The notes beneath the pieces were generated by a model that was not told the origin of the DNA, made no database searches, and saw nothing but the letters and a program-made list of their open reading frames with translations. Both the position numbers and the translations under genes were made by a program. 64,000 bases of DNA from Pseudomonadota bacterium (GTDB lineage: Bacteria > Pseudomonadota > Gammaproteobacteria > Burkholderiales > Rhodocyclaceae), in the NCBI GenBank assembly GCA_018262095.1, contig JAGTRW010000017.1:1-64000 (forward strand). Reading direction: 5' to 3'. This document shows, piece by piece, positions 122 to 23,293 of the stretch; position 1 is the stretch's first letter; every line of letters begins with the position of its first letter.

Positions 122-1827
<1,706 letters not shown>

Positions 1828-1831
<4 letters not shown>

Positions 1832-2133: not shown

Positions 2134-2146
2134 CGCAATCCACCTC

Positions 2147-2449: not shown

Positions 2450-2465
2450 AAAATCTCCTCGAAAA

Positions 2466-3839: not shown

Positions 3840-3859
3840 CGCAGTTTTCACCTCATTTT

Positions 3860-4888: not shown

Positions 4889-4898
4889 GGCGAAAAAA

Positions 4899-5627
4899 TC
4901 AGTTGATTGAACCGATGAAGTTGGCAAGCTCGGGCGTCTTCGGATGAGCGAACAGCTCGGCCGGTGTTCCCGATTCGTGGATTCGTCCTTCGTGCATGAA
5001 TACTAAACGGTCGCCGACCTCGCGCGCAAAGCGCATCTCGTGCGTCACCATGATCAGCGTCATGCCCTCGGCGGCAAGCGTCTTGACCACCGCCAGCACT
5101 TCGTTCACCAGTTCGGGATCGAGCGCCGAGGTGATTTCGTCGCACAGCAGCACGCGCGGCTGCATCGCCAGCGCGCGCGCAATCGCCACGCGCTGCTGCT
5201 GCCCGCCCGACAACTGGTCGGGATAGGCGTCGTACTTCTCGGACAGGCCGACCTTGTCAAGCACGCTGCGGGCGATCGTTTCGCATTCGCCGCGCGGCGT
5301 TTTTTTGACCACCTGTGGCGCGAGCATCACGTTCTCGCCGACCGACAGATGCGGGAACAGGTTGAACTGCTGAAAGACCATTCCGACCTTCTGACGCAAT
5401 TCGCGCAGATTGGTCTGGCCGGCGTGCAAGCGCTCGCCGTCGACCTCGACCAGGCCGTCCTCGAAGCTCTCGAGGCCGTTGATCGAGCGCAGCAGCGTGC
5501 TCTTGCCCGAGCCGCTGCGGCCGATCAGCGCGACCACTTCGCCCTGCTTGATGCGCAGGTCGATGCCCTTGAGCACATGGTTGCTGCCGAAGTGCTTGTG
5601 CAAACCGTCAATGCGTACGAGATTCAC
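4899..5627 (-). CDS. polar amino acid-type ABC transporter ATP-binding protein
   Basis: GlnQ/HisP-type ATPase. It shows Walker [10 protein letters not shown], the [13 protein letters not shown]-loop, signature LSGGQQQR, Walker [13 protein letters not shown] and the switch histidine in MVTHEM. The preferred start is a GTG (translated [13 protein letters not shown]) preceded by AAAGGA, giving 242 aa; a TTG five codons earlier is less likely. It overlaps the upstream permease gene by 20 bases and is followed after 10 bases by allantoicase. I therefore infer that the transported solute is a ureide such as allantoate rather than an ordinary amino acid. Confidence 0.93.
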
Positions 5628-6264
5628 GGGAATTCCTTTCAAGACGACGCGAAAATGCCGACAGCGGATAACACAGGATGAAGTAGCCCAGTGCCACCAG
5701 ACCGAAGACCAGGAAGGGCTTGTAGGTGGCGTTGGCGAGCATCGATCCGGTCTTGGTCAGTTCGACGAAACCGATGATCGAGGTCACCGCCGTACCCTTG
5801 ACGACCTGCACCGAGAAGCCGACCGTCGGCGCGATGGCGATGCGGCGCGCCTGCGGCAGGATGACGTAGCGCATCTGTTCGAAATGCGACAGCGCCAGGC
5901 TGGCCGACGCTTCCCACTGGCCCTTGGCGACCGACTCGACGCAGGCTCGCCAGATTTCGCCGAGGTAGGCGCTGGTAAACAGCGTCAGCCCGAGCGCGGC
6001 GGCGAGCCAGGGCGAGAGTTCGATGCCGATCAGGCTGCTGCCGAAGAAAATGATGAACAGCTGCATCAGCAGCGGCGTTCCTTGGAAGACCTCGATATAG
6101 CCTTGCGCCAGACGGCGCAGCCAGGTGCGCTTGGCGATTCGCGCGAAGAGCAGCGCCAGGCCCGAGACGCCGCCGAGGACGAAGGCGCAGAGCGACAGGC
6201 CGAGCGTCCACATGGCGCCATCCGCCAGGTTGCGGGCGACGTCCCAGGTCGAGATGTCGTTCAT
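5608..6264 (-). CDS. ABC transporter permease (His/Glu/Gln/opine type), second subunit
   Basis: Integral membrane subunit with the family EAA loop (ASASLALSHFEQMRYVILPQARRIAIAPTVGF) and about five hydrophobic segments. The start is the ATG of MNDISTWDVARNL, which overlaps the stop of the other permease gene in an ATGA. This gives 218 aa, typical for this family. A longer open frame upstream of this ATG is out-of-frame sequence of the neighbouring permease. It forms the channel together with the next gene upstream. Confidence 0.93.
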   Translation of the reverse strand: MNDISTWDVARNLADGAMWTLGLSLCAFVLGGVSGLALLFARIAKRTWLRRLAQGYIEVFQGTPLLMQLFIIFFGSSLIGIELSPWLAAALGLTLFTSAYLGEIWRACVESVAKGQWEASASLALSHFEQMRYVILPQARRIAIAPTVGFSVQVVKGTAVTSIIGFVELTKTGSMLANATYKPFLVFGLVALGYFILCYPLSAFSRRLERNSRESRTH

Positions 6265-6929
6265 GCGCGTCTCCCGCCGAGCAGCCGTCGGCCGCCGCGG
6301 ATCATGATCTGGCGCACCAGCAGCGCGAGAACGAAATACATCGCGGTGACGATGAAATAGGTTTCGAAGGCGCGGAAATTGCGCGACTGGATGAAGTTGG
6401 CGGCGAAGGTCAGTTCCTCGGCGGCGATCTGCGAGCAGACCGACGAGCCGAGCATGACGATCACCACCTGGCTGCAGATCGCCGGCCAGACCTTGCGCAG
6501 CGCCGGCGGCAACACCACCTGGCGGAAGATCTGCGCGCGCGTCATGGCCAGCGACTGCGCCGCCTCGATCTGACCGCGCGGCGTCGCTTCGATTCCGGCG
6601 CGGATGATTTCGGTGGTGTAGGCGCCCAGATTGATCACCATCGCCAGGATCGCCGCCTGCCATTCGTTGATCTGGACGCCGAGCGACGGCAGGCCAAAGA
6701 AGATGAAGAACAGCTGGACCAGGAACGGCGTGTTGCGAACGGCCTCGACATAGACCGCGAAGACCTTGTCGTACGGCGCGATGCGCCAGGCGCGCGAGAC
6801 CGCACCGAGAACGCCGATGGCCAGGCCGAAGACCGTTCCGGTCGCGGTCAGCGCCAGCGTGCGCAGCGTCCCGGCGAGCAGCACCTCGCGATATTCGAGG
6901 ACGGCGGCAAAATCGAAGGAGTAGGCCAT
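6261..6929 (-). CDS. ABC transporter permease (His/Glu/Gln/opine type), first subunit
   Basis: 222-aa inner-membrane permease with the classic motif VEAVRNTPFLVQLFFIFFGLP and EAA loop EAAQSLAMTRAQIFRQVVLPPALR. The start MAYSFDFAAVL is chosen over an ATG 12 codons earlier because it matches the compact N terminus of the family. It is the partner of the next permease, translationally coupled, and lies just downstream of the binding protein gene. Confidence 0.92.
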   Translation of the reverse strand: MAYSFDFAAVLEYREVLLAGTLRTLALTATGTVFGLAIGVLGAVSRAWRIAPYDKVFAVYVEAVRNTPFLVQLFFIFFGLPSLGVQINEWQAAILAMVINLGAYTTEIIRAGIEATPRGQIEAAQSLAMTRAQIFRQVVLPPALRKVWPAICSQVVIVMLGSSVCSQIAAEELTFAANFIQSRNFRAFETYFIVTAMYFVLALLVRQIMIRGGRRLLGGRRA

Positions 6930-6977
6930 GGCGTTTGCTCCGGTACCGCCGGTGACGAGCGGCACCCGTGAGGTGGA

Positions 6978-7769
6978 TTAGAGATTGGCCGGCAACGCCG
7001 CGTGCAGCCAGCGCTGCGACACCTGATTGAGGTCGCCCGAGCGCTTGAGCTTGGCGATCACCTCATTGACCCTGGCCAGCAAGGCGGCCTCGCCCTTGTT
7101 GACTGCGACGTAGCAAGGCGAATCCTTGATCAGGAACTTGGTGTCGAGGCGGCGCAGCTTCGAGCTTTCATTGACCGCCGCGGCGACGACGTTGCCGGTG
7201 GCGATCAACTGGACCTGGCCCGAGAGATACGCCGAAATCGTCGAGTTATTGTCCTCGAAACGCTTGATGCTGGTGTTGGCCGGCGCGACCTTGCTGAACT
7301 CGAGGTCTTCGACCGAGCCGCGCGTGACGCCGACGGTCTTGCCGGCGGTATCGGCGGCGCTCTTGATCGGCAGATCGGCAGGGCCGAAGATGCCGTTATA
7401 GAAGGGCGCGTAGGCGACCGAGAAATCGATCACCTTTTCGCGCTCGGCGTTTTTCCCCAGGCTCGAAATCACCAGATCGGCCTTGCCGGTGGTCAGGTAG
7501 GGGACGCGGTTGGTGCTGCTGACCGGGATCAGTTCGACCTTGAGCTTGAGTTCGCGGCCGATCAGGTTGGCGACGTCGATGTCGTAGCCGCGCGGCTTGA
7601 GGTCGGGACCAACCGTCCCGAAGGGCGGGAAATCCTGCGGCACGGCGATGCGCAGCGTGCCGCTCTTTTCGGCGGAAGCCAGCGCGTCGGCGTGGGCGTT
7701 GAGCGCGATGGCGCTGCTGCCGAGGATGGCGGTGGCGATCAAGGTGCGGAGAAACAGGCGCTTGTTCAT
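6978..7769 (-). CDS. periplasmic substrate-binding protein of the ureide-cluster ABC transporter
   Basis: SBP_bac_3 family protein, 263 aa, starting MNKRLFLRTLIATAILGSSA with a signal peptide cleaved after NAHA. The mature part begins ALASAEKSGTLRIAVPQDFPPFG and has PRGYDIDVANLIGREL and GKADLVISSLGKNAEREKVIDFS, typical of cluster-3 binding proteins. It lies first among the transporter genes, after the GntR gene. Neighbouring allantoicase and urease make allantoate or a related ureide the likely ligand; this is inference. Confidence 0.92.
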   Translation of the reverse strand: MNKRLFLRTLIATAILGSSAIALNAHADALASAEKSGTLRIAVPQDFPPFGTVGPDLKPRGYDIDVANLIGRELKLKVELIPVSSTNRVPYLTTGKADLVISSLGKNAEREKVIDFSVAYAPFYNGIFGPADLPIKSAADTAGKTVGVTRGSVEDLEFSKVAPANTSIKRFEDNNSTISAYLSGQVQLIATGNVVAAAVNESSKLRRLDTKFLIKDSPCYVAVNKGEAALLARVNEVIAKLKRSGDLNQVSQRWLHAALPANL

Positions 7770-7797
7770 GAGGCGACTCCCGGAGGGTTGAAGGAAA

Positions 7798-8475
7798 CTA
7801 GGGCTGGACAAAGGAAAGGCCGACGCGCTTGGCGGCGGCCAGCAGGTGTCGCTGCATCGCGCGGCGCGCCGCAGCAGCGTCGGCGGCAACGATCGCGTCG
7901 AGAATCAATTGGTGTTCGTCGAAGGTCTGCCAGATGTGTTGGCGATCGGCGAACGGCAGGCGCAGGCTGAACGCCAGTTGCGCCTTGAACTGCTCGGCGA
8001 TGGCCAGCAGCCCGGCGTTCCCCGACAATTCGGCGACGCTCAGGTGAAAACGCAGATCCTCGTCGGCGGCGGTCACTAGGTCGCAGGTGCTCAGCGCCGC
8101 CTGCATCGCGCTCAGGCTGGCCGTCAGCGGCGAAAGCTCGGCGCCTCTGGCGCCGCGCGCGGCGAGGCTGGCATTGGCCGGTTCGACGACGTAGCGCAAT
8201 TGGTAGATGGCGGCCGGCGGCATGGCGCTTGGACCGGCCGGCAGATCCTTGGGCGACGGCCGCGTTCCGGCGGTCACGAAGACTCCCTTGCCCGGATGCG
8301 AACGCAGCAGTCCCAGCGCCTCGAGCATCGAGATCGCCTCGCGCAGCGAAGCGCGACTGATGCCCAGACTCTCGGACAGTTCGCGTTGCGGCGGCAGCGC
8401 CGTCCCGGCCTGGTAGTGGCTGGAAAAAATCTGCCGTTGCAAGGTTTGCGCAGCAATGTTGGAGACGCTTGGCAT
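7798..8475 (-). CDS. FCD-domain GntR family regulator of the ureide operon
   Basis: 225 aa. N-terminal winged helix (GTALPPQRELSESLGISRASLREAISMLEALGLL) is followed by an all-helical FCD ligand domain with histidines in DLRFHLSVAELSGN and DEHQLILDAI. This is the FadR subfamily, which usually binds small acids. It is the first gene of the run transporter - alc - allA - ureDABC, so a local repressor that senses a ureide or glyoxylate-type intermediate is the simplest reading. Confidence 0.92.
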   Translation of the reverse strand: MPSVSNIAAQTLQRQIFSSHYQAGTALPPQRELSESLGISRASLREAISMLEALGLLRSHPGKGVFVTAGTRPSPKDLPAGPSAMPPAAIYQLRYVVEPANASLAARGARGAELSPLTASLSAMQAALSTCDLVTAADEDLRFHLSVAELSGNAGLLAIAEQFKAQLAFSLRLPFADRQHIWQTFDEHQLILDAIVAADAAAARRAMQRHLLAAAKRVGLSFVQP

Positions 8476-10263: not shown

Positions 10264-11037
10264 TCAGACCGCCAGGGCTTCGCGCACGCCATCCTGGTCC
10301 ATGTTGCAACCCCGGCCGCGCATGATGATTTCGCCGCGCTCCATGAGCAGGTAATGGTCGGCTAGATCGCGTGCGAAATCGTAGTACTGCTCGACCAGCA
10401 AAATGGCGACGCGGCCGCTCTCGGCGACCTGGCGAATGGCGTGCTGGACTTCCTCGCGTTGCTCGACCGCGCGGCTGGTGCTGGTCTCCAGTCGTTGTTG
10501 CTGGGCCACGATGCGGATCGCGCGGCCGATGTCCTTGATGATCGACGGCTGGATTCCCTCGGTCGGCTCGTCGAGGATCAGGATTTTGGGGTTCATGGCC
10601 AGTGCGCGGCCGATCGCCAGCTGTTGTTGCTGGCCGCCGGAGAGGTCGCCGCCGCGGCGTCCCAACATGCTTTTGAGGACCGGAAAGAGATCGAAGACCA
10701 GATCGGGAATCTTGCTGCCGCGCGGCTGCGTGGCGAGTCCCATCAGCAGGTTTTCTTCGACCGTCAGGCGCGGGAAAATTTCGCGGCCCTGCGGCACGTA
10801 GCCGATGCCTTGACTGACGCGCTGATGCGGCGCGGCAGTGGTGATGTCCTGTCCACAGAAGACCATCGTTCCGTTGCGCGCCGGAACCAGCCCCATCAGG
10901 CATTTCATCAGCGTCGTCTTGCCGACGCCGTTGCGGCCGAGCAGAGCGGTCACCTGTCCCATCGGCACCTCGAAGCTCAAGTTGCGCAGGATGTGGCTGC
11001 CGCCGTAGTACTGGTTGAGGTTATCTACTTGGAGCAT
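10264..11037 (-). CDS. urtE: urea ABC transporter ATP-binding protein UrtE
   Basis: Second ATPase of the urea transporter (LivF-like). Walker A is GRNGVGKTT, signature LSGGQQQQLAIGRAL, Walker B ILILDEPTEG, then IQPSIIKDI, typical of UrtE. It has 257 aa, about 25 more than the usual 230. The excess is a polar, helical insertion near residues 173-200 (QRLETSTSRAVEQREEVQHA) between Walker B and the final VAILLVEQYYDFARDLAD block. It is separated from urtD by a 660-base repeat region rather than being adjacent as in most urt operons. Confidence 0.95.
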   Translation of the reverse strand: MLQVDNLNQYYGGSHILRNLSFEVPMGQVTALLGRNGVGKTTLMKCLMGLVPARNGTMVFCGQDITTAAPHQRVSQGIGYVPQGREIFPRLTVEENLLMGLATQPRGSKIPDLVFDLFPVLKSMLGRRGGDLSGGQQQQLAIGRALAMNPKILILDEPTEGIQPSIIKDIGRAIRIVAQQQRLETSTSRAVEQREEVQHAIRQVAESGRVAILLVEQYYDFARDLADHYLLMERGEIIMRGRGCNMDQDGVREALAV

Positions 11038-11697: not shown

Positions 11698-12543
11698 TCA
11701 GCGCCCAAGATACACCTCGATCACCCGTTGATCGTTCTGCACGCTGTCGAGGTCGCCCTCGGCGAGGACCGATCCCTCGTGCAGCACCGAGACCTTGCCG
11801 CTGAGTTCCTTGATGAACGCCATGTCGTGTTCGACGACGACCAGTGAATGCTTGCCGGCGAGCGAAACGAAGAGCTCGGCGGTGCGCATCGTTTCGTCGT
11901 CGGTCATTCCGGCGACCGGCTCGTCGAGCAGCAGCAGTTTGGGCTGCTGCACCAGCAGCATGCCGATTTCAAGCCATTGCTTCTGGCCGTGCGACAAGAG
12001 CCCGGCCGGGCGGTCGGCCTCTGCGTCGAGGCGGATCTGGCGCAGCGTGTCGGCGACGGCGTCGCGCGCATCGCCCGCGAGGCGCGCGCACAGGCTGCGG
12101 CTAACGCGCTTGTCGGTCTTCATCGCCAGTTCGAGATTCTGGAAAACGCTGTGCTGCTCGAAGATCGTCGGCTTCTGGAACTTGCGGCCGATCCCGGCGT
12201 GCGCGATTTCGGGTTCGGTGAGGTGGGTCAAGTCGATGCTCTGGCCGAAGAAGGCGCTGCCCGAGTCGGGCCGCGTCTTGCCGGTGATGACGTCCATCAT
12301 CGTCGTCTTGCCGGCGCCGTTGGGCCCGATGATGCAGCGCAGCTCGCCGGCGTCGATGGCCAGCGTGAGCTTGTTGAGCGCCTTGAAGCCGTCGAAGCTG
12401 ACGGTGATGTCTTCCAGGTAGAGGATGACGTTGTGCGAGATGTCGAGCGTTTTCTGCTGGCCGAGGGTGGTCGAGCGATAAGCCGGCGCGCATTGCTCGG
12501 GATCGATACCGATCACCTTGCGAAAGAATTCCCTGGTGCTCAT
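11698..12543 (-). CDS. urtD: urea ABC transporter ATP-binding protein UrtD
   Basis: LivG-like ATPase of the urea transporter: VSFDGFKALNKL, Walker A GPNGAGKTT, GRKFQKPTIFEQHSVFQNLELAM, signature LSHGQKQWLEIGMLL and Walker B LLLLDEPVAGMTDDE. The HGQKQWLEIGML form is typical of UrtD. The start MSTREFFRKV gives 281 aa and overlaps the urtC stop in an ATGA; the open frame continues far upstream only as an out-of-frame shadow of urtC. It has an N-terminal extension of about 35 residues before the ATPase fold, as many UrtD proteins do. Confidence 0.95.
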   Translation of the reverse strand: MSTREFFRKVIGIDPEQCAPAYRSTTLGQQKTLDISHNVILYLEDITVSFDGFKALNKLTLAIDAGELRCIIGPNGAGKTTMMDVITGKTRPDSGSAFFGQSIDLTHLTEPEIAHAGIGRKFQKPTIFEQHSVFQNLELAMKTDKRVSRSLCARLAGDARDAVADTLRQIRLDAEADRPAGLLSHGQKQWLEIGMLLVQQPKLLLLDEPVAGMTDDETMRTAELFVSLAGKHSLVVVEHDMAFIKELSGKVSVLHEGSVLAEGDLDSVQNDQRVIEVYLGR

Positions 12544-13652
12544 GCGCGTGCTCCCCGTGATTGACGCAGCTTCTTCCATAACCCGAGCAGACCGTTCGGC
12601 AGCAGCAGCGTCACCAGGATGAACAGCAGACCGAGGAAGAACAGCCAGTATTCGGGGAACGAGACGGTGAACCAGCTCTTGGCCAGATTGACGACGAAGG
12701 CGCCGATCACCGGGCCGATCAGCGTGCCGCGACCGCCGACGGCGACCCATATCGCGATCTCGATCGAATTGGCGGTGCTCATCTCCGACGGGTTGATGAT
12801 CCCGACCTGCGGCACGTAGAGCGCGCCGGCGATGGCGCACAGTACGGCCGACAGCGTCCAGACGAAGAGCTTGTACCACAGCGGGTTGTAGCCGATGAAC
12901 ATGACGCGCGATTCGGCGTCGCGGATCGCCGTGAGCACACGGCCGTATTTCGAGGCGACCAGCGCGCGCGCGAAGATCAAGGTGGCCGCCAGCATCAGCG
13001 CCGAGAGGCCGAACAGCACGAGGCGGGTATACGGCGAGGTGATGCTGTAGCCCAGAATACGCTTGAAGTCGGTGAAGCCGTTGTTGCCGCCGAAACCCGT
13101 TTCGTTGCGGAAGAAGAGCAGCATCGCGGCGTAGGTCAGCGCCTGCGTGATGATCGAGAAATAGACGCCCTTGATTCGCGAGCGGAAGGCGAAGTAGCCG
13201 AAGACGAAGGCGATCAGCGCCGGAACGACGACGACCAGCAGCGCGACCCACCACAGGCTGTCGGAGCCGCTCCAGTACCACGGCAGTCGCTTCCAGTCGA
13301 GAAACACCATGAAGTCGGGAAGATCGCTCTGGTAGCTGCCGTCGCGTCCGATCTGGCGCATCAGGTACATGCCGAAGGCGTAGCCGCCGAGCGCGAAGAA
13401 GAGGCCGTGGCCGAGCGACAGGATGCCGCCGTAACCCCAGATCAGGTCCATCGCCACGGCCACGACGGCGTAGCACATGATCTTGCCGAACAGCGTGATG
13501 GCGTAGGCCGAGACGTGAAACGCATTGTCCGGCGGTACCAGCAGATGCAGCAGCGGAACCGCGATCAGCGTGAGCGCGAGGAAGACGGCGAGCGCCAGCG
13601 CGCTCTTGCGGTCGAGCGCGGAAAGGAAGCGCTGGGTCAAGGGTTTACGCAT
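12540..13652 (-). CDS. urtC: urea ABC transporter permease UrtC
   Basis: LivM-like inner-membrane permease of 370 aa with about ten hydrophobic segments. Family blocks include GYGGILSLGHGLFFALGGYAFGMYLM and NNGFTDFKRILGY, followed by an RDAESRVMFIGYNPLWYKLF coupling loop. It is coupled to urtD by a four-base overlap. A repeat-containing spacer of about 190 bases separates it from urtB. Confidence 0.95.
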   Translation of the reverse strand: MRKPLTQRFLSALDRKSALALAVFLALTLIAVPLLHLLVPPDNAFHVSAYAITLFGKIMCYAVVAVAMDLIWGYGGILSLGHGLFFALGGYAFGMYLMRQIGRDGSYQSDLPDFMVFLDWKRLPWYWSGSDSLWWVALLVVVVPALIAFVFGYFAFRSRIKGVYFSIITQALTYAAMLLFFRNETGFGGNNGFTDFKRILGYSITSPYTRLVLFGLSALMLAATLIFARALVASKYGRVLTAIRDAESRVMFIGYNPLWYKLFVWTLSAVLCAIAGALYVPQVGIINPSEMSTANSIEIAIWVAVGGRGTLIGPVIGAFVVNLAKSWFTVSFPEYWLFFLGLLFILVTLLLPNGLLGLWKKLRQSRGARA

Positions 13653-13844: not shown

Positions 13845-15422
13845 TCATTCGACTGAGCGTCCCTTGAGGGCGAAGATGCCCTGCGGACGCTTCTGGATGA
13901 AAACGATGATGAAGACGAGTACGGCGATCTTGGCGATCACCGCGCCGGCCCAGCCTTCGAGCAGCTTGGTCGCGACGCCCAGGCCGAGCGCCGCCCACAC
14001 CGCGCCGGCGAGCTGGCCGACGCCGCCGAGAACGACGACCATGAAGGCATCGACGATGTAGCCCTGGCCCATGTCCGGACCGACGTTGGAGATCTGCGAC
14101 AACGCGAGCCCCCCGAGTCCGGCGATTCCGGCGCCGAGCGCGAAGGCCAGGGTGTCGATGCGCGCGGTCGGTACGCCGACGCAGCCGGCCATCGCGCGGT
14201 TTTGCGTCACGGCGCGGACGAACATGCCGAGCCGCGTCTTGTTCATCAGCACCCAGACCAGCGTCAGAACGAACAGCGCGAAGCCGACGATGACGATGCG
14301 GTTCCACGGCAGGATCAGGTTGGGCAGGAGTTCGATTCCGCCCGACATCCAGCTCGGGTTCGAGACTTCGACGTTCTGCGCGCCGAACAGCACGCGCGCC
14401 GCCTGGATCAGCACCAGCGAGACGCCCCAGCTGGCGAGCAGCGTCTCCAGCGTGCGCCCGTAGAGCCAGCGGATCACGGTGCGCTCCATCAGCACGCCGA
14501 CCGCCGCAGCGGCGAAGAAGGCGACCGGGATCGCCGCCGGCAGATACCAGTCGATGGCCTGCGGAAAATAGCTGCGAAAGACGCTCTGCATCGCGTAGGC
14601 GGCGTAAGCGCCGACCATCAAGAGCTCGCCGTGCGCCATGTTGATCACCCCCATCACGCCGTAGGTGATCGCCAGGCCGAGCGCGCCGAGCAGCAGGATG
14701 CTGCCGAGCGACAGGCCGGAAAAGACGCGGCCCAGGTTCTCGGCACGCGCCAGGCGTGCGTCGATCGCCTTGGTCGCTGAAATCGTCGCGAAGCGCACCC
14801 GGTTGTCGGGCTCTTTGGCCTTGTCGGTGAGCGGCAGCAGCACGCTCTTGATCGCCGGCGAAGACGTTTCGCTGAGCGCGCGGACCGCCGCCAGGCGCAC
14901 CACCGGGTCGGCGCTGCCGAGGCTCGCCTGGGCGTGCGCCAGCGTCAGCAGCGCGCGGATCCGCGCGTCGCTCTCTTTTTCCAGCGCGCGCGCCAGCAGC
15001 GGCGCCATTTCGCCGCTGACGCTGCTTTGCAGCTTCTGCGCCGAAGCCAGGCGAACATTGACGTCGGTATCGAAGAGCTTGAGCGCGGCCAGCGCACTCG
15101 CCAGTTCGCCGCGAATGCGGTTGTTGATGGTGACCGACTCGGCGTTCTCGGGGGCCTTGATCGGCGTGCCGGTCGCGGCGTCGAAGGCCTTGTCGCCGTC
15201 GATGATGACGACCTGGTCGCCGGCCAGATAGAGGCCGTCTTCGGCCATCGCCGCCAGCACGCGCAGCGTGTCGGGGTCGGCGCTCAGCGTCAGCTGCTGA
15301 ATCGCGGCGACCTTGACGCTCGAATCGTCGTCGGCCAGCTGGCGCACCAGCGCCGCGTCGGGCGCCGCATGCGCCGACAGGCAACAGGCGTACAGCAAAA
15401 ATAGAAACAGGGCTCTGGTCAT
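13845..15422 (-). CDS. urtB: urea ABC transporter permease UrtB
   Basis: 525 aa. It has a signal-like start (MTRALFLFLLYACCLSAHA) and an extracytoplasmic helical-repeat region to about residue 220. A LivH-like permease follows (LGSILLLGALGLAITYGVMGVINMAHGELLMVGAYAAYAMQ; NRAMAGCVGVPTARIDTLAFALGAGIAGLGG). The long N-terminal domain is normal for UrtB. It has its own upstream palindrome and follows a terminator after urtA, so it probably starts a separate transcript urtBCDE. Confidence 0.95.
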   Translation of the reverse strand: MTRALFLFLLYACCLSAHAAPDAALVRQLADDDSSVKVAAIQQLTLSADPDTLRVLAAMAEDGLYLAGDQVVIIDGDKAFDAATGTPIKAPENAESVTINNRIRGELASALAALKLFDTDVNVRLASAQKLQSSVSGEMAPLLARALEKESDARIRALLTLAHAQASLGSADPVVRLAAVRALSETSSPAIKSVLLPLTDKAKEPDNRVRFATISATKAIDARLARAENLGRVFSGLSLGSILLLGALGLAITYGVMGVINMAHGELLMVGAYAAYAMQSVFRSYFPQAIDWYLPAAIPVAFFAAAAVGVLMERTVIRWLYGRTLETLLASWGVSLVLIQAARVLFGAQNVEVSNPSWMSGGIELLPNLILPWNRIVIVGFALFVLTLVWVLMNKTRLGMFVRAVTQNRAMAGCVGVPTARIDTLAFALGAGIAGLGGLALSQISNVGPDMGQGYIVDAFMVVVLGGVGQLAGAVWAALGLGVATKLLEGWAGAVIAKIAVLVFIIVFIQKRPQGIFALKGRSVE

Positions 15423-15486: not shown

Positions 15487-15502
15487 TACGTCGTATTGCG
15501 TA
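15487..15502. promoter_or_regulatory. candidate response-regulator site upstream of urtB
   Basis: The plus strand reads TACGTCG-TA-TTGCGTA, two heptamers spaced by two bases, in a wider block GGAATACG....ATTGCGTAGGG. The same block with the same spacing is found upstream of urtA. It lies about 65-80 bases upstream of the urtB start codon and just after the urtA terminator, a promoter-proximal position. The 7-2-7 layout of TAC-type heptamers is what NarL/LuxR-family regulators use, and such a regulator gene lies 3 kb away. Confidence 0.6.
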
Positions 15503-15571: not shown

Positions 15572-16843
15572 TTACTTGCTTTCGGGCTCGTCCTTCTTGG
15601 TGTCGTTGCCGGCGATGTACGGGCTCCACGGTTGCGCCTTGATCGGTCCCGGCGTTTTCCAGACGACGTTGAACTGGCCGTCGGCCTTGATTTCGCCGAT
15701 GAACACCGATTTGTGCAGATGGTGGTTCTTCTCGTCCATGGTCGAGGTGATCCCGCTCGGCGCCTTGAAGGTCTGGCCGGCCATCGCCGCGATCACCTTG
15801 TCGACGTCGGTCGATTTCGCCTTCTCGACCGCCTGCTTCCACATGTGGATGCCGATATAGGTCGCTTCCATCGGATCGTTGGTCACAACCTTGGCGGCGT
15901 TCGGCAGCTTCTGTTTCTTGGCCCAGTCCTGGTACATCTTGACGAACTTGGTGTTCTCCGGGTTCTTGAGCGACATGAAGTAGTTCCACGACGCCAGGTG
16001 CCCGACCAGCGGCTTGGTATCGACGCCGCGCAGTTCCTCTTCGCCGACCGAGAAGGCGACCACCGGAACGTCGGTCGCCTTGAGGCCGGCGTTGCCCAGT
16101 TCCTTGTAGAACGGAACGTTCGAATCGCCGTTGATGGTCGAGACGACCGCAGTCTTCTTGCCTTCGCCGGCGAACTTCTTGATCTTGGCGATGATCGTCT
16201 GGTAATCGGAATGGCCGAACGGCGTGTACTCTTCCATGATGTCGGCGTCACTGACGCCCTTGGATTTGAGGAAAGCGCGCAGGATCTTGTTGGTCGTCCG
16301 CGGATAGACGTAGTCGGTGCCGAGCAGAACGAAGCGCTTGGCTTCGCCGCCGTCCTTGCTCATCAGGTATTCGACGGCGGGAATGGCCTGCTGGTTGGGC
16401 GCCGCGCCGGTGTAGAAGACGTTCTTTTCGAGTTCTTCACCTTCGTACTGCACCGGGTAGAAGAGCAAGCCGTTGAGTTCCTTGTAGACCGGCAGCACCG
16501 ACTTGCGCGAGACCGATGTCCAGCAGCCGAAGGTCACCGCGACCTTGTCCTTGGTCAGCAGCTGGCGCGCCTTCTCGGCGAACAGCGGCCAGTTCGACGC
16601 CGGGTCGACGACGACCGGCTCGAGCTTCTTGCCGAGCACGCCGCCGGACTTGTTGATTTCGTCGATGGTCATCAGCACGGTTTCCTTGAGCGCGGTCTCG
16701 GAAATGGCCATGGTGCCGGACAGCGAGTGCAGCACGCCGACCTTGATGGTGTCGGCGGCGTGGGCGCCGAACGAGGCGAGGCCGATCGAGGCCAGTGCCG
16801 TGCACAGCACGGTGGCCTTGATGAAATTGCGACGTGATTTCAT
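15572..16843 (-). CDS. urtA: urea ABC transporter substrate-binding protein UrtA
   Basis: Periplasmic urea-binding protein, 423 aa, with signal peptide MKSRRNFIKATVLCTALASI...FGAHA. The mature part starts ADTIKVGVLHSLSGTMAISE. NGLLFYPVQYEGEE, YTGAAPNQQAIPAVEYLM, KRFVLLGTDYVYPRTTN and ATYIGIHMWKQAV are hallmark UrtA blocks. The start is fixed by AAGGAG nine bases upstream. Its own terminator follows and its own regulatory palindrome precedes it. Confidence 0.97.
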   Translation of the reverse strand: MKSRRNFIKATVLCTALASIGLASFGAHAADTIKVGVLHSLSGTMAISETALKETVLMTIDEINKSGGVLGKKLEPVVVDPASNWPLFAEKARQLLTKDKVAVTFGCWTSVSRKSVLPVYKELNGLLFYPVQYEGEELEKNVFYTGAAPNQQAIPAVEYLMSKDGGEAKRFVLLGTDYVYPRTTNKILRAFLKSKGVSDADIMEEYTPFGHSDYQTIIAKIKKFAGEGKKTAVVSTINGDSNVPFYKELGNAGLKATDVPVVAFSVGEEELRGVDTKPLVGHLASWNYFMSLKNPENTKFVKMYQDWAKKQKLPNAAKVVTNDPMEATYIGIHMWKQAVEKAKSTDVDKVIAAMAGQTFKAPSGITSTMDEKNHHLHKSVFIGEIKADGQFNVVWKTPGPIKAQPWSPYIAGNDTKKDEPESK

Positions 16844-16931: not shown

Positions 16932-16947
16932 TACGCAAGATTGCGTA
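16932..16947. promoter_or_regulatory. candidate response-regulator palindrome upstream of urtA
   Basis: Perfect inverted repeat TACGCAA-GA-TTGCGTA, 89-104 bases upstream of the urtA start codon. It is flanked by GGAA on one side and GGG on the other exactly as in the urtB copy. The heptamer resembles NarL-type TAC half sites in 7-2-7 arrangement. The nearby LuxR-type response regulator is the obvious candidate to bind it; CRP/FNR-type binding is unlikely given the sequence. Confidence 0.65.
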
Positions 16948-17108
16948 GGGGCTGCTCGGCCGGCAGGCTACGGAGCCAACGCCGGAAGAGGAAAGTCTTG
17001 CGCAAGGCACAAAACCTGCTTTGTGATAGGGGCTTTCGCTTGCCAAGCGGAAAAGCGCGATGCTTTGCACCGTTTTCGTGTTCGATCGGCTTCCCTGGAC
17101 ACTGGAAT

Positions 17109-17130
17109 GGTGCGTAAGCACCTGTTTTTT
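17109..17130 (+). terminator. hairpin with T-run in the mcp leader
   Basis: GGTGC-GTAA-GCACC followed by TGTTTTTT on the plus strand. It lies about 140 bases before the chemoreceptor start, with no plus-strand gene upstream of it. It could be an attenuator in the mcp leader or a fortuitous stem; the stem is only five base pairs. Confidence 0.35.
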
Positions 17131-17271
17131 GGGAGAGGGCTCCCGTCACAAATAATTGAACATGGGCGCCCAATGCATCAACGTCGTCGACCAAAGCGGC
17201 GAGGCAGGACAACCAAGGTCTGGGTCATCACGATGGGCCTCGCTGATTACATCCATCGCATCGAGATTCGC

Positions 17272-18906
17272 ATGATTTCAAAATACACCAACTCACTCAA
17301 GGCGCTGCTGCTGATCCTCGTCGTCGTCTGCGGCGCCGGCTTCGCGATTCTGTTGCTGCAGGGCCAGGTCGCGCTGCGTAGCGTCGAACACGCGGCGGTG
17401 CAGATGGGCGACGGCAAGGACATCGTTGCCGATATCCTGCCGCCGCCGCTTTACATCATCGAGACTCACCTGGTGGCCTATCAGTTGCTTGACCAGCCGC
17501 TCGCTGAGCGGGCGGCGCTCGCCGAACAGTTCACCCAGTTGAAAAAGGACTACGTGGCACGCAACGTCTATTGGCAGGGCAAACAGTCAGCGATCGATGC
17601 GACAGCGTATGCGTCGCTGCTCGGGGTGCAGAAGGAAAAAGGCGAAGCCTATTGGCAACGTCTGGAACAGGATTTCCTGCCCGCCGTCCTGGCCGGTCGC
17701 GACGACGAGGCACGAGCCGCGTTCGCCGATCTCAAACAACTCTATTCGGCGCATCGCGCCGGCGTCGATGCGACCGTGAAGGTGGCCTCCGGCTGGTCGG
17801 ACGCCCGCCTCGCCGACCTCTCGGTGACGACGCAGAACGCTCTTTGGGTGCTGTCGGTGGTGGCGGCGCTCTGCCTGGTCGTTGCCGTTCTGCTCTACCT
17901 GCTCGTTTCGCGCCGCATCGGTCGTCTGCTCGGCGCCGAACCTGAGGAACTGCGCGCCGAAATGGTCCGTCTGGCGGCCGGCGACCTGCGCTTGTCAGCG
18001 CGCGGGGGCCCGGACGGCAGCGTGCTGGGCGCCCTGCAACACGCGCAGCAAAGAATCCGCTTGCTGCTCGAGCAAACGGGACTGGCCGCGCAGCAGGTCG
18101 ATCAGCGCGTCGGCCAGGTTCAGCTGAGCTTCGATCAACTCGACACGAATGCTCGTCATCTCGCCGATGCGGCGATGGCGACCAGTTCGGCGATGGAAGA
18201 AATATCGGCCAGCGTGGCGATGATTTTCGAGCAGGCAACGTTCGCCGAAACGGTCGCCGCCGACGCGGTGCGTCAAGCGCAAAGCGGTACCGACGCTTGC
18301 GCCGAGAATCAGGCCAGCGTCGAGCACATTGCCCAGGCCAGCGCCCAGGCGCAGCGCTCGGTGTCGCTGCTGGGCGAACAGTCGAAGGAGGTTGCCGGCA
18401 TCGTTCAGACGATCCGTTCGATCGCCGACCAGACCAATCTGCTGGCACTCAACGCGGCGATCGAGGCGGCGCGCGCCGGCGAACAGGGACGCGGTTTTGC
18501 GGTGGTCGCCGACGAAGTGCGCAAGCTCGCCGAACACACCGCGCAGGCGACCGAGGAGATTACCAAGCTGATCGGCAGAATTCAGAACGGCATCGAGCAG
18601 ACCGTCGCGTCGTTCAACGCGAGCGTTGCCGACATTCAAAGCGGTCGGCAAAGTGCCGAACAGTCGGGGCAGGCGCTTTCTCTTATCCACCAGCGCGTCG
18701 ACGCGCTGACGGCGGGCGTCGCCGATATCGTCAATGCCACGCGCGAGGTCAATAGCGCGGCTCGGCAGATCAACGACAACCTGGCCAGCGTCAGCCGCCT
18801 GGCCGATGCCGGCAGCGCCGCCTCGCACGACACCGCCGATGCCGGCAAGGCCTTGGGCGAAGTTGCCGTGCGCATGAACCAGTCGCTCAGCGCCTTCCAG
18901 TGCTGA
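17272..18906 (+). CDS. methyl-accepting chemotaxis protein
   Basis: 544 aa. TM1 is at about residues 8-30 ([21 protein letters not shown]). A periplasmic helical sensor domain carries the motif [15 protein letters not shown], known from a group of chemoreceptors. TM2 lies near 183-208, followed by a divergent HAMP, then the signalling hairpin with tip [43 protein letters not shown]. No C-terminal CheR/CheB pentapeptide. I chose MISKYTNS as start; an ATG 13 codons upstream after AAGG is possible. Its place between urtA and the permease-kinase suggests taxis to urea or a ureide. Confidence 0.93.
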
Positions 18907-18975: not shown

Positions 18976-19899
18976 TCAGGTCCCTCGGATCTTGCTCATC
19001 GCCAGGTTGGCGGCGGCGGTTCGCGTTTCGACGCCGAGTTTTTCGAACACGTGCTCGAGGTGCTTGGTGACGGTTCGCGGGCTGCTGCCGACGATCTCGC
19101 CGATGTCGCGGCTGGTCTTGCCGAGCGTCACCCAGTAGAGCACTTCGGCTTCGCGCTGGGTCAGGCGAAAGGCGGCGATCAGCGAGTCGATCGCCGAAGC
19201 GTCGTTCTCCTCGCGCAGAACGACCAGCCATTCGTCGTCGCCGGTCTGGTCGTGGAACGAGGCGAGCAATCGCCGGCAGCCCTGCGCGACGAGCAAGGCC
19301 GCCGGTTCGCCGCCTTCGCGCCGCGCGCGCTGCGCGGCGGCAATCCAGTCGAGCAGTTCCTGCGGCGCGACTTCCTCGGGGTTGGCGAAATAGTCCTTGA
19401 GCAATGACCGGGCGAGCGGCGTCTGCCACACCACTTTGCCGTCGCGCGAACGCACGGCGACTGTCGCCTGGCCGAAGGCGTCGAGCGCGCTGCGCGCCTG
19501 CTTCATCTGCCGCGCGTTGTGCATGTGCGCGGCGATTCGCGCCAGTACCTGCGCCGGCTGCAGCGGCTTGGTGACATAGTCGGCGGCGCCGGCGGCAAAG
19601 GCGGCGACGACGTGCTCGGTCTCGGTGAGACCGGTCATGAAGACGATCGGAATGTGATGCGTCGTAAAGTCGGCCTTGAGCCGGCGAGCGACCTCGAAGC
19701 CGTCGATTCCGGGCATCAGCGCGTCAAGCAGGATGACGTCGGGCAGGCTCTGGCGCGCGCGCTGCAGCGCCGACTCGCCGTTGGTCGCGACCAGTACCGT
19801 GTAGCCCGCTTCGTCGAGCGCGTCGTGCAGCAGCGAGAGGTTTTCGGGGATGTCGTCGACGATCAGCACGATGTCGGTGACGCTTCGATCAATGGGCAT
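18976..19899 (-). CDS. LuxR-type response regulator (REC - linker/PAS-like - HTH)
   Basis: 307 aa. Receiver domain with phosphoacceptor Asp about residue 59 (DVILLDALMPGIDGFE) and acidic pair VDD near 14-16. A middle region (about 140-235) resembles a small PAS-like module. A C-terminal LuxR HTH follows (LTQREAEVLYWVTLGKTSRDIGEIVGSSPRTVTKHLEHVFEKLGVETRTAAA). The start MPIDRSVTDIV overlaps the kinase gene by 11 bases, so it is the cognate partner. Likely targets are the urtA and urtB palindromes. It is convergent with the chemoreceptor gene with a 69-base gap. Confidence 0.95.
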   Translation of the reverse strand: MPIDRSVTDIVLIVDDIPENLSLLHDALDEAGYTVLVATNGESALQRARQSLPDVILLDALMPGIDGFEVARRLKADFTTHHIPIVFMTGLTETEHVVAAFAAGAADYVTKPLQPAQVLARIAAHMHNARQMKQARSALDAFGQATVAVRSRDGKVVWQTPLARSLLKDYFANPEEVAPQELLDWIAAAQRARREGGEPAALLVAQGCRRLLASFHDQTGDDEWLVVLREENDASAIDSLIAAFRLTQREAEVLYWVTLGKTSRDIGEIVGSSPRTVTKHLEHVFEKLGVETRTAAANLAMSKIRGT

Positions 19900-22800
19900 C
19901 GCGTGCCTTTCTGATGATTTCCTTGATGGCGTCGAACTGGAAGCCGCGCGCCAACTCGCGCAGCACGCGGACGAACTCGCCGTGTGCCGGGCTCTCGCGT
20001 TCGATCTCGCCGAGCTTGTTGAGAATGCCGCGCAGATAGCCGAGGCTGACCAGTTCGTCGAGCGCGGCGAGCTGCTCCCGATCCGGCGGCACCAGCGGTT
20101 GCGGCGCCGGCGCGGCAGGTGCTGCGGCCGGCGGCGGCGTTTCGGCACTGACCCATTGCAGGCCGAGCTTGCGGCCGATCCAGTCGAGCAGTTCGTCGAC
20201 GCGCAGCGGTTTGACGATGAAATCATCAAAGGCGATCACCACGTCGTTGTCGAGCCCCTTGTCGAAGGCGTTGGCCGAGAGGATCGCGATGTGCGCGTCG
20301 CAGAGCTGCTCTTCGCGGATTCGGCGAATCGTCTCCCAGCCGTCGATGCCGGGCATCGCCAGGTCCATGAAGATGAGGTGCGGCGCGAAGCTGGGCAGGA
20401 GTTGCAGGCATTCGTAGCCGCTCGCTGCCTGCTCGATCTCGAAGCCGAGCGGGTCGAGAACGCTCTGCAGCATCTCGCGGTCGACTTTTTCGTTGTCGAC
20501 GACCAGGATGCGGCGGCGGATGCCGACGTAGCCGATCGGCCGCGCGCGCGGCAAGCCGCGCATCCCCGCTTCCGAACTGGCGGCCGGCAGGAACAGGCGG
20601 ATGCGAAAGACGCTGCCTTGCTTGGGCGTACTGACAACCTGCAACTCGCCGCCCATCAGGTCGGTGAGCATGCGCGCGATGGTCAGGCCGACGCCGCTGC
20701 CGCCGGCCTGCGCGCTGCTGCCGCGAACGAAGGGCTCGAAGATTCGTTCGAGCTCTTCGGGCGGGATGCCGGGGCCGCTGTCGCGAATTTCGAAGGTGAT
20801 CATTCCCAGGCGGCTTTCGACGCGCAGGCTGACTTCGCCGCGCAGCGTGAACTTGACGGCGTTGCCGAGCACGTTGATCAGGATCTGGCGCAGCCTTCGC
20901 TCGTCGACGCGCACCACCGCCGGCAGTTCGTCGCTCGCCTGGTAGGAAAAACCCAGTCCCTTGTTGCGCGCCTGCAACTCGAACATGCCGACGATCTGCT
21001 GCAGAAAATCGGGAAAATCGAGCGGCTTGACGTCGAGCGTGAGCTTGCCGCCTTCGATTCTCGCGATGTCGAGCGTTCCCTCGATCACCGACAACAGGTG
21101 GTCGCCGCTCTTGCGGATGACGCCCACCGCCTGCCGGCGGTTGGGCGGGATCGCCTCGTCGCCGTCGAGGATCTGCGCGTAGCCGAGGATGCTGTTGAGC
21201 GGTGTGCGCAACTCGTGGCTGATCGCCGTGATGTAACGGCTCTTGGCGAGGTTGGCCTGGTCGGCGGCCTGTTTGGCCTTTTGCAGCTGCTCGTCGGTGC
21301 GCTGGTGCGAGTCGATTTCCTGCATCAGCAAGCGCGTCTGGCGGTTCGACTCTTCCTGCGCCACCCGCCGGCTCTGGTGCGTCAGCACCATCCACCAGGC
21401 GGCGATGCCGGAGAGCAGCAGCAAGCCCGAAAAGGCTTTGATGAAGGTCTGTTGCAGATGCGCAATCAACTCGGCTTGCGCCGCGCCGAGCGTCAGCACT
21501 TCATGCGTATAGAGCAGGCCGAGCAGTCCGGCGAGCAGCGGGATGATTCCGGCCATCAACAGCAGGTAATGCGCCAGCCCGGTTTCGAGGTAAGGGACGA
21601 GCGCTGCGGGAAGAATGCGGTGCAGCGCGCTCTTCCATTGCGCGGCGAGATTGGCGCCGGGCTTGCACAGGTCGTCGCAGCGCGCGTCGAGCGAGCAGCA
21701 CAGCGAGCAGATGGTACCGCCGTAAGCCGGGCAGTGCGCGGTGTCGTCGCTTTCGTAGTCGCGTTCGCAGATGCAGCAACGCTGCATCCCGGTCGCTGGC
21801 GCGCTGCCACGTTTGACCAGGTAATAGCGGCCGCCGGTCGCCCAGGCGATCAGCGGCGCGCTGACGAAGGCGGCGAGCAGCGCGATGAACGACGCGTAGG
21901 GCTGCAGCGCTGCGCCGAGCAAGCCGGCGAAAGCGGCGATCGACAGCAGCGAGGCGATGCTCATGGCGCCGACGCCGACCGGGTTGATGTCGTAGAGATG
22001 GCTGCGCTTGAACTCGATGTGCGGTGGCGACAGCCCCAGCGGCTTGTTGATCGTGAGGTCGGCAACCACCGCGGCCATCCACGAGATGGCGATATTCGAA
22101 TAGAGACCGAGGATCTGGCCGAGCACCTGGAAGACGTCGAGTTCCATCAGCAAGAGCGCGATCAGCGTGTTGAAGACGACCCAGACGACGCGTCCGGGAT
22201 GGCTGTGCGTCAGGCGCGCAAAGAAATTCGACCAGGCCAGCGAGCCGGCATAAGCGTTGGTGACGTTGATCTTGAGCTGTGAGATGACGACGAACAGGAC
22301 CGTCGCGGCGATCGCCAGCGCCGAGTTGGAAAAGACGTGAGAGAAGCCGATCAGGTACATCTGGTTGGGGTCGACGGCTTTGGCTGCGGGGACCGAATTG
22401 CGCAGCGCGAGATAGGCGAGCAGCGCGCCGCCGAGCATCTTGGCGACGCCGGGGACGACCCAGCCGGGGCCGCCGAGCACCACCGCCAGCCACCAGCGGC
22501 GAGCGCTTTTTGCCGTTCGCTCGGGCATGAAGCGCAGGTAGTCGGCCTGCTCGCCCATCTGCGTCACCAGCGCGATGCCGACGGTGAGCGCGGCGCCGAA
22601 CAGCGGCATCGAGAACTCGCCGCCTTGCCCCTGTTCGCCCGGGTAGCGCAACAGACCGCTGAGTACCTCGGGCTGCTGCACCAGCAGGAAGGCGTAGGGC
22701 AGTACCAGCAAGGCCAGCCACAGCGGTTGCGTCCATGCCTGCAGCCGGCTGATCACGGTGACGCCGTGGGTGACCAGCGGGATCACCGCCAGCGCGCAGA

Positions 22801-23293
22801 TCAGGTAGCCCCAGCGCGGCGGGATATGGAACGCCAGTTCGAGCGCGTAGGCCATGATCGCCGCTTCGAGCGCGAAGAAGATGAAGGTGAACGACGCATA
22901 GATCAGCGAGGTGATCGTCGATCCGATGTAGCCGAAGCCCGCGCCGCGCGTCAGCAGGTCCATGTCGAGGCCGTAGCGCGCTGCGGCGTGGCTGATCGGC
23001 AGGCCGATCAGAAAGATGATCAGCCCAGTCGCCAGGATCGCCCAGAAAGCGTTGATGAAGCCGCTGCCCACCAGCATGGTCGCGCCGACCGCTTCGAGCA
23101 CCAGAAACGACGCGGCGCCGAAGGCGGTATTGGCGACGCGAATTTCCGACCATTTGCGGAAGCTGTGCGGCGTGAAGCGCAGCGCGTAGTCCTCGAGCGT
23201 CTCGTTGGCGACCCAGGTGTTGTAGTCGCGCCTGATCTTGACCACTCGCTGGAGCGGCTCGGCGACGGATTCGACAGAAGGGGGTCGGGTCAT
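19889..23293 (-). CDS. NCS1 permease - hybrid histidine kinase fusion (transceptor)
   Basis: 1134 aa with an unusual order. Residues about 1-490 form a complete NCS1-family (cytosine/purine/allantoin/hydantoin) permease of about 12 helices, starting with NETLEDYALRFTPHSFRKWSE. Residues about 503-545 are a cysteine-rich module (CCICE...HCPAYGGTICSLCCSLDARCDDLCKP). Two further TM segments and a coiled coil follow (to about 680). Then come HisKA with His693 (ISHELRTPLNS), HATPase (to about 910) and a receiver with Asp977. The C-terminal helical tail of about 90 residues lacks an HPt histidine motif. It pairs with the overlapping LuxR-type regulator. By analogy with CrbS-type SLC5 kinases, it probably senses a nitrogenous solute while, or instead of, transporting it. 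Confidence 0.93.
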   Translation of the reverse strand: MTRPPSVESVAEPLQRVVKIRRDYNTWVANETLEDYALRFTPHSFRKWSEIRVANTAFGAASFLVLEAVGATMLVGSGFINAFWAILATGLIIFLIGLPISHAAARYGLDMDLLTRGAGFGYIGSTITSLIYASFTFIFFALEAAIMAYALELAFHIPPRWGYLICALAVIPLVTHGVTVISRLQAWTQPLWLALLVLPYAFLLVQQPEVLSGLLRYPGEQGQGGEFSMPLFGAALTVGIALVTQMGEQADYLRFMPERTAKSARRWWLAVVLGGPGWVVPGVAKMLGGALLAYLALRNSVPAAKAVDPNQMYLIGFSHVFSNSALAIAATVLFVVISQLKINVTNAYAGSLAWSNFFARLTHSHPGRVVWVVFNTLIALLLMELDVFQVLGQILGLYSNIAISWMAAVVADLTINKPLGLSPPHIEFKRSHLYDINPVGVGAMSIASLLSIAAFAGLLGAALQPYASFIALLAAFVSAPLIAWATGGRYYLVKRGSAPATGMQRCCICERDYESDDTAHCPAYGGTICSLCCSLDARCDDLCKPGANLAAQWKSALHRILPAALVPYLETGLAHYLLLMAGIIPLLAGLLGLLYTHEVLTLGAAQAELIAHLQQTFIKAFSGLLLLSGIAAWWMVLTHQSRRVAQEESNRQTRLLMQEIDSHQRTDEQLQKAKQAADQANLAKSRYITAISHELRTPLNSILGYAQILDGDEAIPPNRRQAVGVIRKSGDHLLSVIEGTLDIARIEGGKLTLDVKPLDFPDFLQQIVGMFELQARNKGLGFSYQASDELPAVVRVDERRLRQILINVLGNAVKFTLRGEVSLRVESRLGMITFEIRDSGPGIPPEELERIFEPFVRGSSAQAGGSGVGLTIARMLTDLMGGELQVVSTPKQGSVFRIRLFLPAASSEAGMRGLPRARPIGYVGIRRRILVVDNEKVDREMLQSVLDPLGFEIEQAASGYECLQLLPSFAPHLIFMDLAMPGIDGWETIRRIREEQLCDAHIAILSANAFDKGLDNDVVIAFDDFIVKPLRVDELLDWIGRKLGLQWVSAETPPPAAAPAAPAPQPLVPPDREQLAALDELVSLGYLRGILNKLGEIERESPAHGEFVRVLRELARGFQFDAIKEIIRKARDAH

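Follow-up and report, generated by a model that had tools for sequence, protein, structure and literature searches.

A candidate urea/small-amide sensor kinase with an NCS1-like permease domain and its predicted operator at urtA

Known transporter kinases and the fusion

Sensor kinases fused to a transporter are few in kind; in the literature covered they belong to the SLC5/STAC and Amt types. The SLC5/STAC kinases CbrA, CrbS and RpuS, with the ligands histidine, acetate and pyruvate, combine a LeuT-fold transporter with a histidine kinase and serve a dedicated nutrient regulon (PMC5715377, PMC9100948, PMC13022988). CbrA has been termed a rare transceptor (PMC13022988), and CrbS acts via the LuxR-family regulator CrbR on an inverted repeat; enterobacteria lack the system, and the repeat was not found in them (PMC5715377). 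Another transporter-kinase fusion is Amt5 (PMC5764959, PMC8534201). Here we describe a protein encoded at positions 19889-23293 of a 64,000-nucleotide stretch of a Rhodocyclaceae genome (contig JAGTRW010000017.1, positions 1 to 64,000; referred to as the window), in which an NCS1-like permease domain is joined to a hybrid histidine kinase. The parts of the fusion and the adjacent regulator gene are the following:

19889-23293, minus strand: NCS1-like permease / hybrid sensor histidine kinase fusion, 1134 amino acids (open reading frame, Pfam, front-part profile)
21809-23233, minus strand: NCS1-like permease domain with 12 transmembrane (TM) segments, about residues 21-495 (Foldseek, hhalign, identity to the stand-alone permease P0003)
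21665-21778, minus strand: cysteine-rich linker, residues 506-543 (pattern C-x2-C-x11-C-x7-C-x2-CC-x5-C-x3-C)
21293-21577, minus strand: TM hairpin and long helix leading into the kinase, about residues 573-667 (structure model)
20588-21247, minus strand: HisKA and HATPase_c, phospho-acceptor H693 (Pfam, homologue comparison)
20183-20509, minus strand: receiver domain, D977 (Pfam, homologue comparison)
18976-19899, minus strand: LuxR/NarL-type response regulator (receiver and GerE), receiver aspartate D59 counted from the first methionine (Pfam, sequence)

The open reading frame of the fusion runs from ATG to TGA without an internal stop, and its GC content at the three codon positions (0.65/0.44/0.87) has the pattern of a real gene. 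Pfam recognises HisKA (residues 683-749), HATPase_c (797-902) and Response_reg (929-1037), and with the conserved phospho-acceptors H693 and D977 these domains make the protein a hybrid histidine kinase. The TM hairpin behind the linker corresponds to helices 565-594 and 599-659 of the AlphaFold model (shifted by 8). The regulator gene begins 11 nucleotides inside the kinase gene; its product has the receiver and the GerE helix-turn-helix domain of a LuxR/NarL-type regulator, and a homologue was found in the flanking stretch of 60 of the 63 fusion copies collected phylum-wide. An initial annotation of the window had described a full NCS1-type permease on one chain with HisKA, HATPase and receiver domains, and Pfam, fold and profile evidence uphold this description. 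The eight-cysteine linker, the TM hairpin and the overlapping regulator gene are additions to it.

We propose, with a probability of about 0.7, that the fusion is a urea/small-amide sensor kinase which arose from an NCS1-type permease and acts via its regulator on urtA. In the proposed mechanism the LeuT-fold domain would bind urea or, where the fusion belongs to other clades, probably formamide or acetamide. Occupancy of the permease would reposition the eight-cysteine cytoplasmic linker together with the TM hairpin, and this change would shift HisKA between its kinase and phosphatase states. Phosphate would pass from H693 to D977 of the receiver and from there to the neighbouring LuxR-type regulator, which would then bind the sequence TACGYMA-N2-TKRCGTA 88 nucleotides before urtA, as well as an imperfect site before urtB, and activate the high-affinity urea ABC transporter.

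It is useful to compare this protein with the described systems. Like the SLC5/STAC kinases, it would combine a LeuT-fold transporter and a histidine kinase with a dedicated nutrient regulon (PMC5715377, PMC9100948, PMC13022988), and like CrbS/CrbR it is associated with a LuxR-family regulator and an inverted repeat (PMC5715377). It differs from them in that its transporter is NCS1-like, that an eight-cysteine linker and a TM hairpin follow in which Pfam recognised no STAC domain, and that its ligand class would be urea and amides. The comparison with SLC5-type transporter kinases, made already in the initial annotation, stands, but the fusion does not itself belong to that group, as NCS1-type structures head the fold search. 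Ks-Amt5 is similar in being a nitrogen-compound transporter turned sensor kinase (PMC5764959, PMC8534201), but it has the Amt fold of another transporter family, and its compound is ammonium. A table published in 2009 for Dechloromonas aromatica RCB contains, beside UrtA, a histidine kinase of 1131 amino acids and a CheY-like receiver protein of 308 amino acids (PMC2907700). By size and gene order this kinase is an apparent orthologue of the fusion; in the available part of that paper it is entered as a plain histidine kinase, without mention of a permease domain, a ligand or a target (PMC2907700). The ammonia sensor GrtK of Burkholderia glumae was considered as a relative and rejected, being a protein of 427 amino acids with a PilS-like domain (PMC12918730). 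Among the top-ranked matches in the open-licence literature we found neither an NCS1-kinase fusion nor a urea- or amide-sensing kinase.

Linkage to urea and amide genes

The fusion is common: about one in seven of the sampled phylum genomes has it, and so do many plasmids. In a phylum-wide sample of 397 genomes the profile of the front-part module matched 60 (in G170 over 40 residues only), a collection of genome species contained at least 576 relatives, of which the 80 closest were retained, and 532 plasmid records, 342 of them from Klebsiella, matched the permease domain, stand-alone permeases included. On one Klebsiella IncFIB plasmid (L387, 4897-14369) a single cluster comprises urtABCDE together with the genes for the fused kinase and a formamidase. 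The genome of the window has a second copy of the fusion, on contig C49, which adjoins a UrtA-like ABC transporter.

To measure the linkage, stretches of up to 20 kb at the 63 phylum-wide copies were compared with 16 control stretches located 500 kb to 1 Mb away in the same genomes. A binding protein of the UrtA/FmdD type or urease markers were present at 58 of the 63 copies and at none of the 16 controls. Two of the marker-negative loci (L228 and L229) have the Pfam domains FmdA_AmdA and AmiS_UreI, models with which the controls were not scanned, and in two others (L196 and L230) the stretch is cut by contig ends, L196 still having the operator discussed below. By their gene content 37 of the 63 loci were classified as F-type and 21 as U-type, the latter with urt and/or urease genes. 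F-type loci encode a UrtA-like ABC transporter, which we take to be fmdDEF. De novo clustering and NCBIfam models identified in them the formamidase FmdA (34/37), whereby a formamidase marker taken from L103, which had matched at 0/63 copies, was recognised as a poor query and discarded, and an aliphatic amidase (20/37). Thus the link of the fusion to urt genes, suggested in the initial annotation, is borne out by these markers and by the operator at urtA, but the fusion does not always stand beside urt, as the 37 F-type loci adjoin the fmd-type amide cluster.

The U/F label requires four changes on a permease-domain tree comprising 78 of 139 rows, a tree with long branches obtained by a quick short search, with eight unlabelled rows outside the change count; L187 and L204 were excluded from the residue and tree counts. 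The number of changes argues that the linkage switched repeatedly between urea and amide genes, and we infer that the direction was from amide to urea. Residue 308 (22370-22372) is an aspartate in 33 of 34 U-type sequences and a glutamate in 29 of 36 F-type ones, and four separately placed U groups agree in it; being the best of 540 columns, it is only a lead.

The permease domain, its relatives and the cysteine-rich linker

Sequence comparison and the structure model support the view that the front domain is NCS1-like, i.e. related to this family though under the formal Pfam cut-off. When an AlphaFold model of residues 9-668, made with an alignment of 56 homologues, was compared with the PDB by Foldseek, the first four ranks were occupied by Mhp1 (three times, best E 3.9e-7) and CodB (E 2.5e-5), with TM-scores (template-modelling scores) of 0.50-0.57 by target length and a root-mean-square deviation of about 14 A. 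Other LeuT-fold families ranked below the NCS1 structures, the best SLC5-type structure coming sixth (E 7.7e-4), which argues against an SLC5 domain. In hhalign the front part aligned with 16 PF02133 permeases over 416 columns (probability 97.2, E 3e-11; probability of the control UrtC 0.3), and the profile of these 16 permeases recovers Mhp1 and CodB. The stand-alone permease P0003 forms an intermediate, it is 47% identical to the fusion over 522 columns and passes PF02133 with 37.7 bits (cut-off 23.5).

The NCS1 assignment is challenged by the medium confidence of the model (mean predicted local distance difference test, pLDDT, 66.6; predicted template-modelling score, pTM, 0.58) and above all by PF02133 (Transp_cyt_pur) itself: it did not match the fusion at E<=1 or any of the 56 homologues in the alignment at E<=10, a search of the window's whole genome gave no match, and formal membership, i.e. 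a score over the curated cut-off, is not reached by the fusion. Residues 9-668 had no credible match to any Pfam family. The PF02133 cut-off was likewise missed by some stand-alone relatives (P0004, the L406 permease) and by the distant L103 and L104. A sequence search of the PDB with the fusion returned, among the matches listed, kinase parts only, and searches with the 56-homologue profile, L104 and P0003 returned no match. Because the fold, the profile comparison and the intermediate P0003 agree despite the PF02133 miss, we consider the fusion a relative of the NCS1 permeases.

The part of the initial annotation that assigned the first ~490 residues to NCS1 is thus retained with a qualification: fold, hhalign and the P0003 chain speak for it, and no other transporter family came ahead of the NCS1 structures, while the family's own Pfam model misses the domain. 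Conservation of the NCS1 substrate-site residues had been proposed as a check. Two tryptophans of Mhp1 have roles in substrate binding; in an alignment read by hand they correspond to F139 and L242 of the fusion, and for this reason the aromatic sandwich for a ring substrate looks lost. Compared with Mhp1 and CodB, the fusion shares the predicted fold and a distant sequence similarity, but it escapes Pfam detection, lacks the Mhp1 aromatics, has a kinase attached and occurs in a urea/amide context.

Nine loci with stand-alone relatives of the permease were read. They were picked from the plasmid matches listed, the sample is therefore non-random, and L400 and L401 are nearly alike. Seven of the nine adjoin urease, formamidase or amidase genes: urease in K. 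pneumoniae (L388), A. lwoffii (L400) and A. ursingii (L401), formamidase in M. osloensis (L402) and Tsukamurella (L389), aliphatic amidase in Arthrobacter U41 (L404) and Methylovirgula (L406). The Streptomyces (L403) and Arthrobacter NicSoilB11 (L405) loci had no such neighbour. In Methylovirgula the neighbours of the permease are a hybrid kinase with its regulator, a formamidase and the amidase; judging from size and place, this kinase would be the fusion. The K. pneumoniae permease (L388, 6944-8551), annotated as a cytosine permease, follows ureG in the urease operon and may be a urea permease. The L388 record is 692 kb long and also holds rpoD and dnaG. The stand-alone permease Klebsiella WP_002916878.1, annotated as a cytosine permease, is 47% identical to the fusion over the whole permease domain and part of the cysteine tail, but it has no kinase, four instead of eight tail cysteines, and a phenylalanine in TM1 in place of E67.

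Eight polar residues of the sensor (E143, Q245, E248, D251, K341, N343, N346 and Y348) are common to all seven aligned stand-alone permeases. Together with the context of the stand-alone loci this suggests that the sensor probably recognises the same compound class as permeases working alongside urease and amidases. The same eight shared residues would also suit a true transceptor, in which the permease still transports urea or an amide and the kinase reads flux rather than simple binding, and for CbrA the literature assumes transporter and kinase roles in one protein (PMC7096432, PMC13022988). We regard a transceptor as possible, though doubtful: E67 in TM1 is present in 138 of 139 fusions, whereas the seven stand-alones have F (six) or Q (one) at this position, a dedicated urt ABC importer is encoded next door, and Ks-Amt5 has been described as an inefficient ammonium translocator (PMC8534201).

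For a wider evolutionary scheme we see evenly balanced chances. It would run as follows: an unrecognised NCS1-like branch, mislabelled as cytosine or allantoin permeases, carries urea and short amides; one member became a sensor through fusion to a kinase, expansion of the cysteine tail from four to eight and an acidic TM1 residue, E67; and the sensor changed repeatedly between operons for amides and operons for urea, one and the same operator being present at urtA in three separately placed urea-linked clades. The fusion suggests a function for those permeases of urease clusters that now bear the name cytosine or allantoin permease. As stand-alone permeases, a predicted operator and few predicted target promoters are available, the question of how a transporter turns into a receptor is open to tests of single residues.

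The strict linker pattern was present in 139 of the 141 homologues as first picked, and the correct open reading frames of the remaining two (L187 and L204) also carry it, so that eight cysteines are found in 141/141. A 40-residue linker query found the linker in 17 of 150 genomes, and 19 matches belong to the fusion family; a weak match in G159, traced to L386, was dropped, because no open reading frame with the motif was there. The linker region of the fusion and of the 56 homologues had no credible match in Pfam, a search that is not equivalent to a direct comparison with STAC. At L228 and L229 a kinase without receiver carries the permease, the cysteine linker and the hairpin known from the fusion, which suggests that this front part moves as a module. 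The two loci additionally encode a receiver-kinase protein, an acetamidase/formamidase and an AmiS/UreI channel.

The invariance of the cysteines, and the restriction of the linker to the fusion family (bar the one weak match), could mean that the primary signal is a metal or redox state read by the linker, with the permease as a scaffold or secondary input. This seems improbable, as the permease pocket is conserved, and five of the nine stand-alone permeases end in a shorter C-x2-C...C-x2-C tail without any kinase. Three others have no tail, and the Methylovirgula permease has one with all eight cysteines. The occurrence of the shorter tail in kinase-less permeases suggests that the cysteine tail probably came along with the permease.

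The putative operator at urtA and the neighbouring genes

The proposed target of the regulator has the following features:

16932-16947: putative operator TACGCAATCTTGCGTA, 88 nucleotides before the urtA ATG (consensus match)
15487-15502: second putative operator between urtA and urtB, deviating from the consensus by one mismatch and located behind a terminator-like hairpin with a T-run
15572-16843, minus strand: urtA, urea-binding protein, predicted target (TIGR03407, 591 bits)

Upstream regions were searched for all 4+4 dyads with spacers of 0-14, using three Markov shuffles as control. One palindrome, TACG-N8-CGTA, was outstanding: 30 of 37 upstream regions of fmdD-type genes and 11 of 15 upstream regions of urtA contained it (shuffles 0.0; reversed pattern 1/37 and 0/15). 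Of the seven F-type regions without it, four carry a version that deviates at one of the eight fixed letters, and two carry a version that deviates at two. The aligned sites read TACGYMA-N2-TKRCGTA, i.e. two heptamers in a 7-2-7 inverted repeat, an arrangement which is known for NarL-type regulators and fits a NarL/LuxR-type dimer. In the 4.8-Mb genome of the window the only mismatch-free match to TACGYMANNTKRCGTA is the site at 16932-16947. Further operator-like sites with one mismatch lie in this genome at C36:10444-10459 and C55:23002-23017.

The operator co-occurs with the fusion. The core was found upstream of the best urtA in 9 of 31 genomes with the fusion and in none of 59 genomes which have urtA but no fusion, three members of group f2 (G313, G465 and G402) being among the latter. 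The nine are the eight U-type genomes of the set and the F-type genome G261, whose site is off consensus; the other 22 are F-type only. Six U-type genomes of this set come in addition to the 15 urtA cases given above; all six have the core at urtA, four of them with urtA ~40-245 kb from the fusion. Altogether the operator is present at urtA in 17 of the 21 U-type genomes examined (G424 is outside this number) vs. 0/59 fusion-free genomes (Fisher p 6e-14, kinship ignored), and its core in 1/23 F-only genomes, off consensus. It occurs in three separately placed U clades, and in the Klebsiella plasmid copy the core lies between urtA and the kinase gene. Full-consensus sites numbered 19 in 36 fusion-bearing genomes, 16 of them at urtA or fmdD (reversed control 9), and four, none at urtA, in 36 fusion-free genomes (reversed control 20). 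Operator and linkage together support control of urt by the fusion.

A number of results weigh against the proposed sensor and its operator. Locus L219 is the one true exception to the linkage, without a linked urea or amide gene, and in the 80 closest loci urt or ure genes were found in the available flank of only 43, 13 of the 37 others being shorter than 15 kb. Full-consensus sites are missing from 18 of the 36 fusion-bearing genomes, the core was found before ureA in 0/13 cases, and it is missing at urtA of a gammaproteobacterial clade (L213, L215, L223 and L226), of which L213 has a one-mismatch form. In the genome of the window the reversed patterns outnumber the real ones, both for the consensus with up to one mismatch (10 vs. 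4) and for TACG-N8-CGTA (58 vs. 21), and within the window TACG-N8-CGTA at one mismatch occurs four times vs. 9.5 expected from shuffles. Genome-wide, the pattern thus shows no enrichment, and the argument for the operator comes from the position of the sites and from the comparison between genomes.

Some other regulator, such as one of global nitrogen control, might use the operator, and a lineage effect might explain why operator and fusion occur together; related genomes share promoters by descent, and binding of the regulator to the site is a prediction. We judge this quite unlikely in view of the difference between U-type, F-only and fusion-free genomes, the recurrence in three separately placed clades and the 7-2-7 architecture.

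The initial annotation had regarded the fusion as a sensor for a nitrogen source derived from purines. On this reading the signal would be allantoin, allantoate, hydantoin or cytosine, and the sensor would govern urea uptake since ureide breakdown ends in urea. Canonical NCS1 permeases do carry allantoin, hydantoin, cytosine and uric acid, some of the stand-alone relatives are annotated as allantoin or cytosine permeases, and genes for allantoicase and ureidoglycolate lyase lie ~15-16 kb off in the window, but this reading is now very improbable: the genes conserved beside the fusion are those for urea and short amides (formamidase and aliphatic amidase at F-type loci), the canonical substrates do not follow for the fusion given the neighbours of seven of the nine stand-alones, the aromatic sandwich seems lost, the ureide operon has a GntR gene of its own, and allantoicase is near the fusion in only one of the 80 loci (L023), a partial test since the flanks reach 9 kb and the allantoicase of the window is ~15 kb away. 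From the ligand list given there urea is favoured, formamide and acetamide are to be added, and a purine-derived or ureide ligand is not supported.

The gene order after the regulator is: divergent chemoreceptor, urtA, urtB, urtC, urtD, urtE, ureide operon, ureD, ureA, ureB, ureC. The neighbours named in the initial annotation (urtA-E, chemoreceptor, allantoicase and urease genes) were verified by family models, and NifQ was also identified in this way among the window neighbours. Besides urtA, the transport and urease genes are:

13845-15422, minus strand: urtB (TIGR03409)
12540-13652, minus strand: urtC (TIGR03408)
11701-12543, minus strand: urtD, start approximate (TIGR03411)
10264-11037, minus strand: urtE (TIGR03410, two matched stretches)
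122-3314, minus strand: urease genes ureD (2466-3314), ureA (2147-2449), ureB (1828-2133) and ureC (122-1831) (family models)

The split of the UrtE match over two stretches may point to a frameshift or to divergence of the C-terminus. The ureide operon (3315-8475, minus strand) encodes ureidoglycolate lyase, allantoicase, an ABC transporter of the polar-amino-acid type and the GntR regulator, and is perhaps a unit for allantoate uptake and breakdown that feeds urea to urease. In Azoarcus olearius the urt and urease genes are induced under nitrogen fixation (PMC8467165), which is compatible with joint nitrogen control.

The chemoreceptor gene (MCPsignal; 17023-18906, plus strand) is divergent from urtA, which places the operator at 16932-16947 in a shared promoter region, and its product may serve urea chemotaxis. 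It seems not to be conserved at the other copies, as matches of 27-34% were found in few of the 80 loci. At L219 a chemoreceptor gene (MCPsignal, HAMP) lies behind the regulator gene. Elsewhere in the window (44625-50611, minus strand) two consecutive large open reading frames, of 1015 amino acids (47564-50611) and 980 amino acids (44625-47567), match the kinase and receiver parts of the fusion, and the 980-residue product begins like a receiver.

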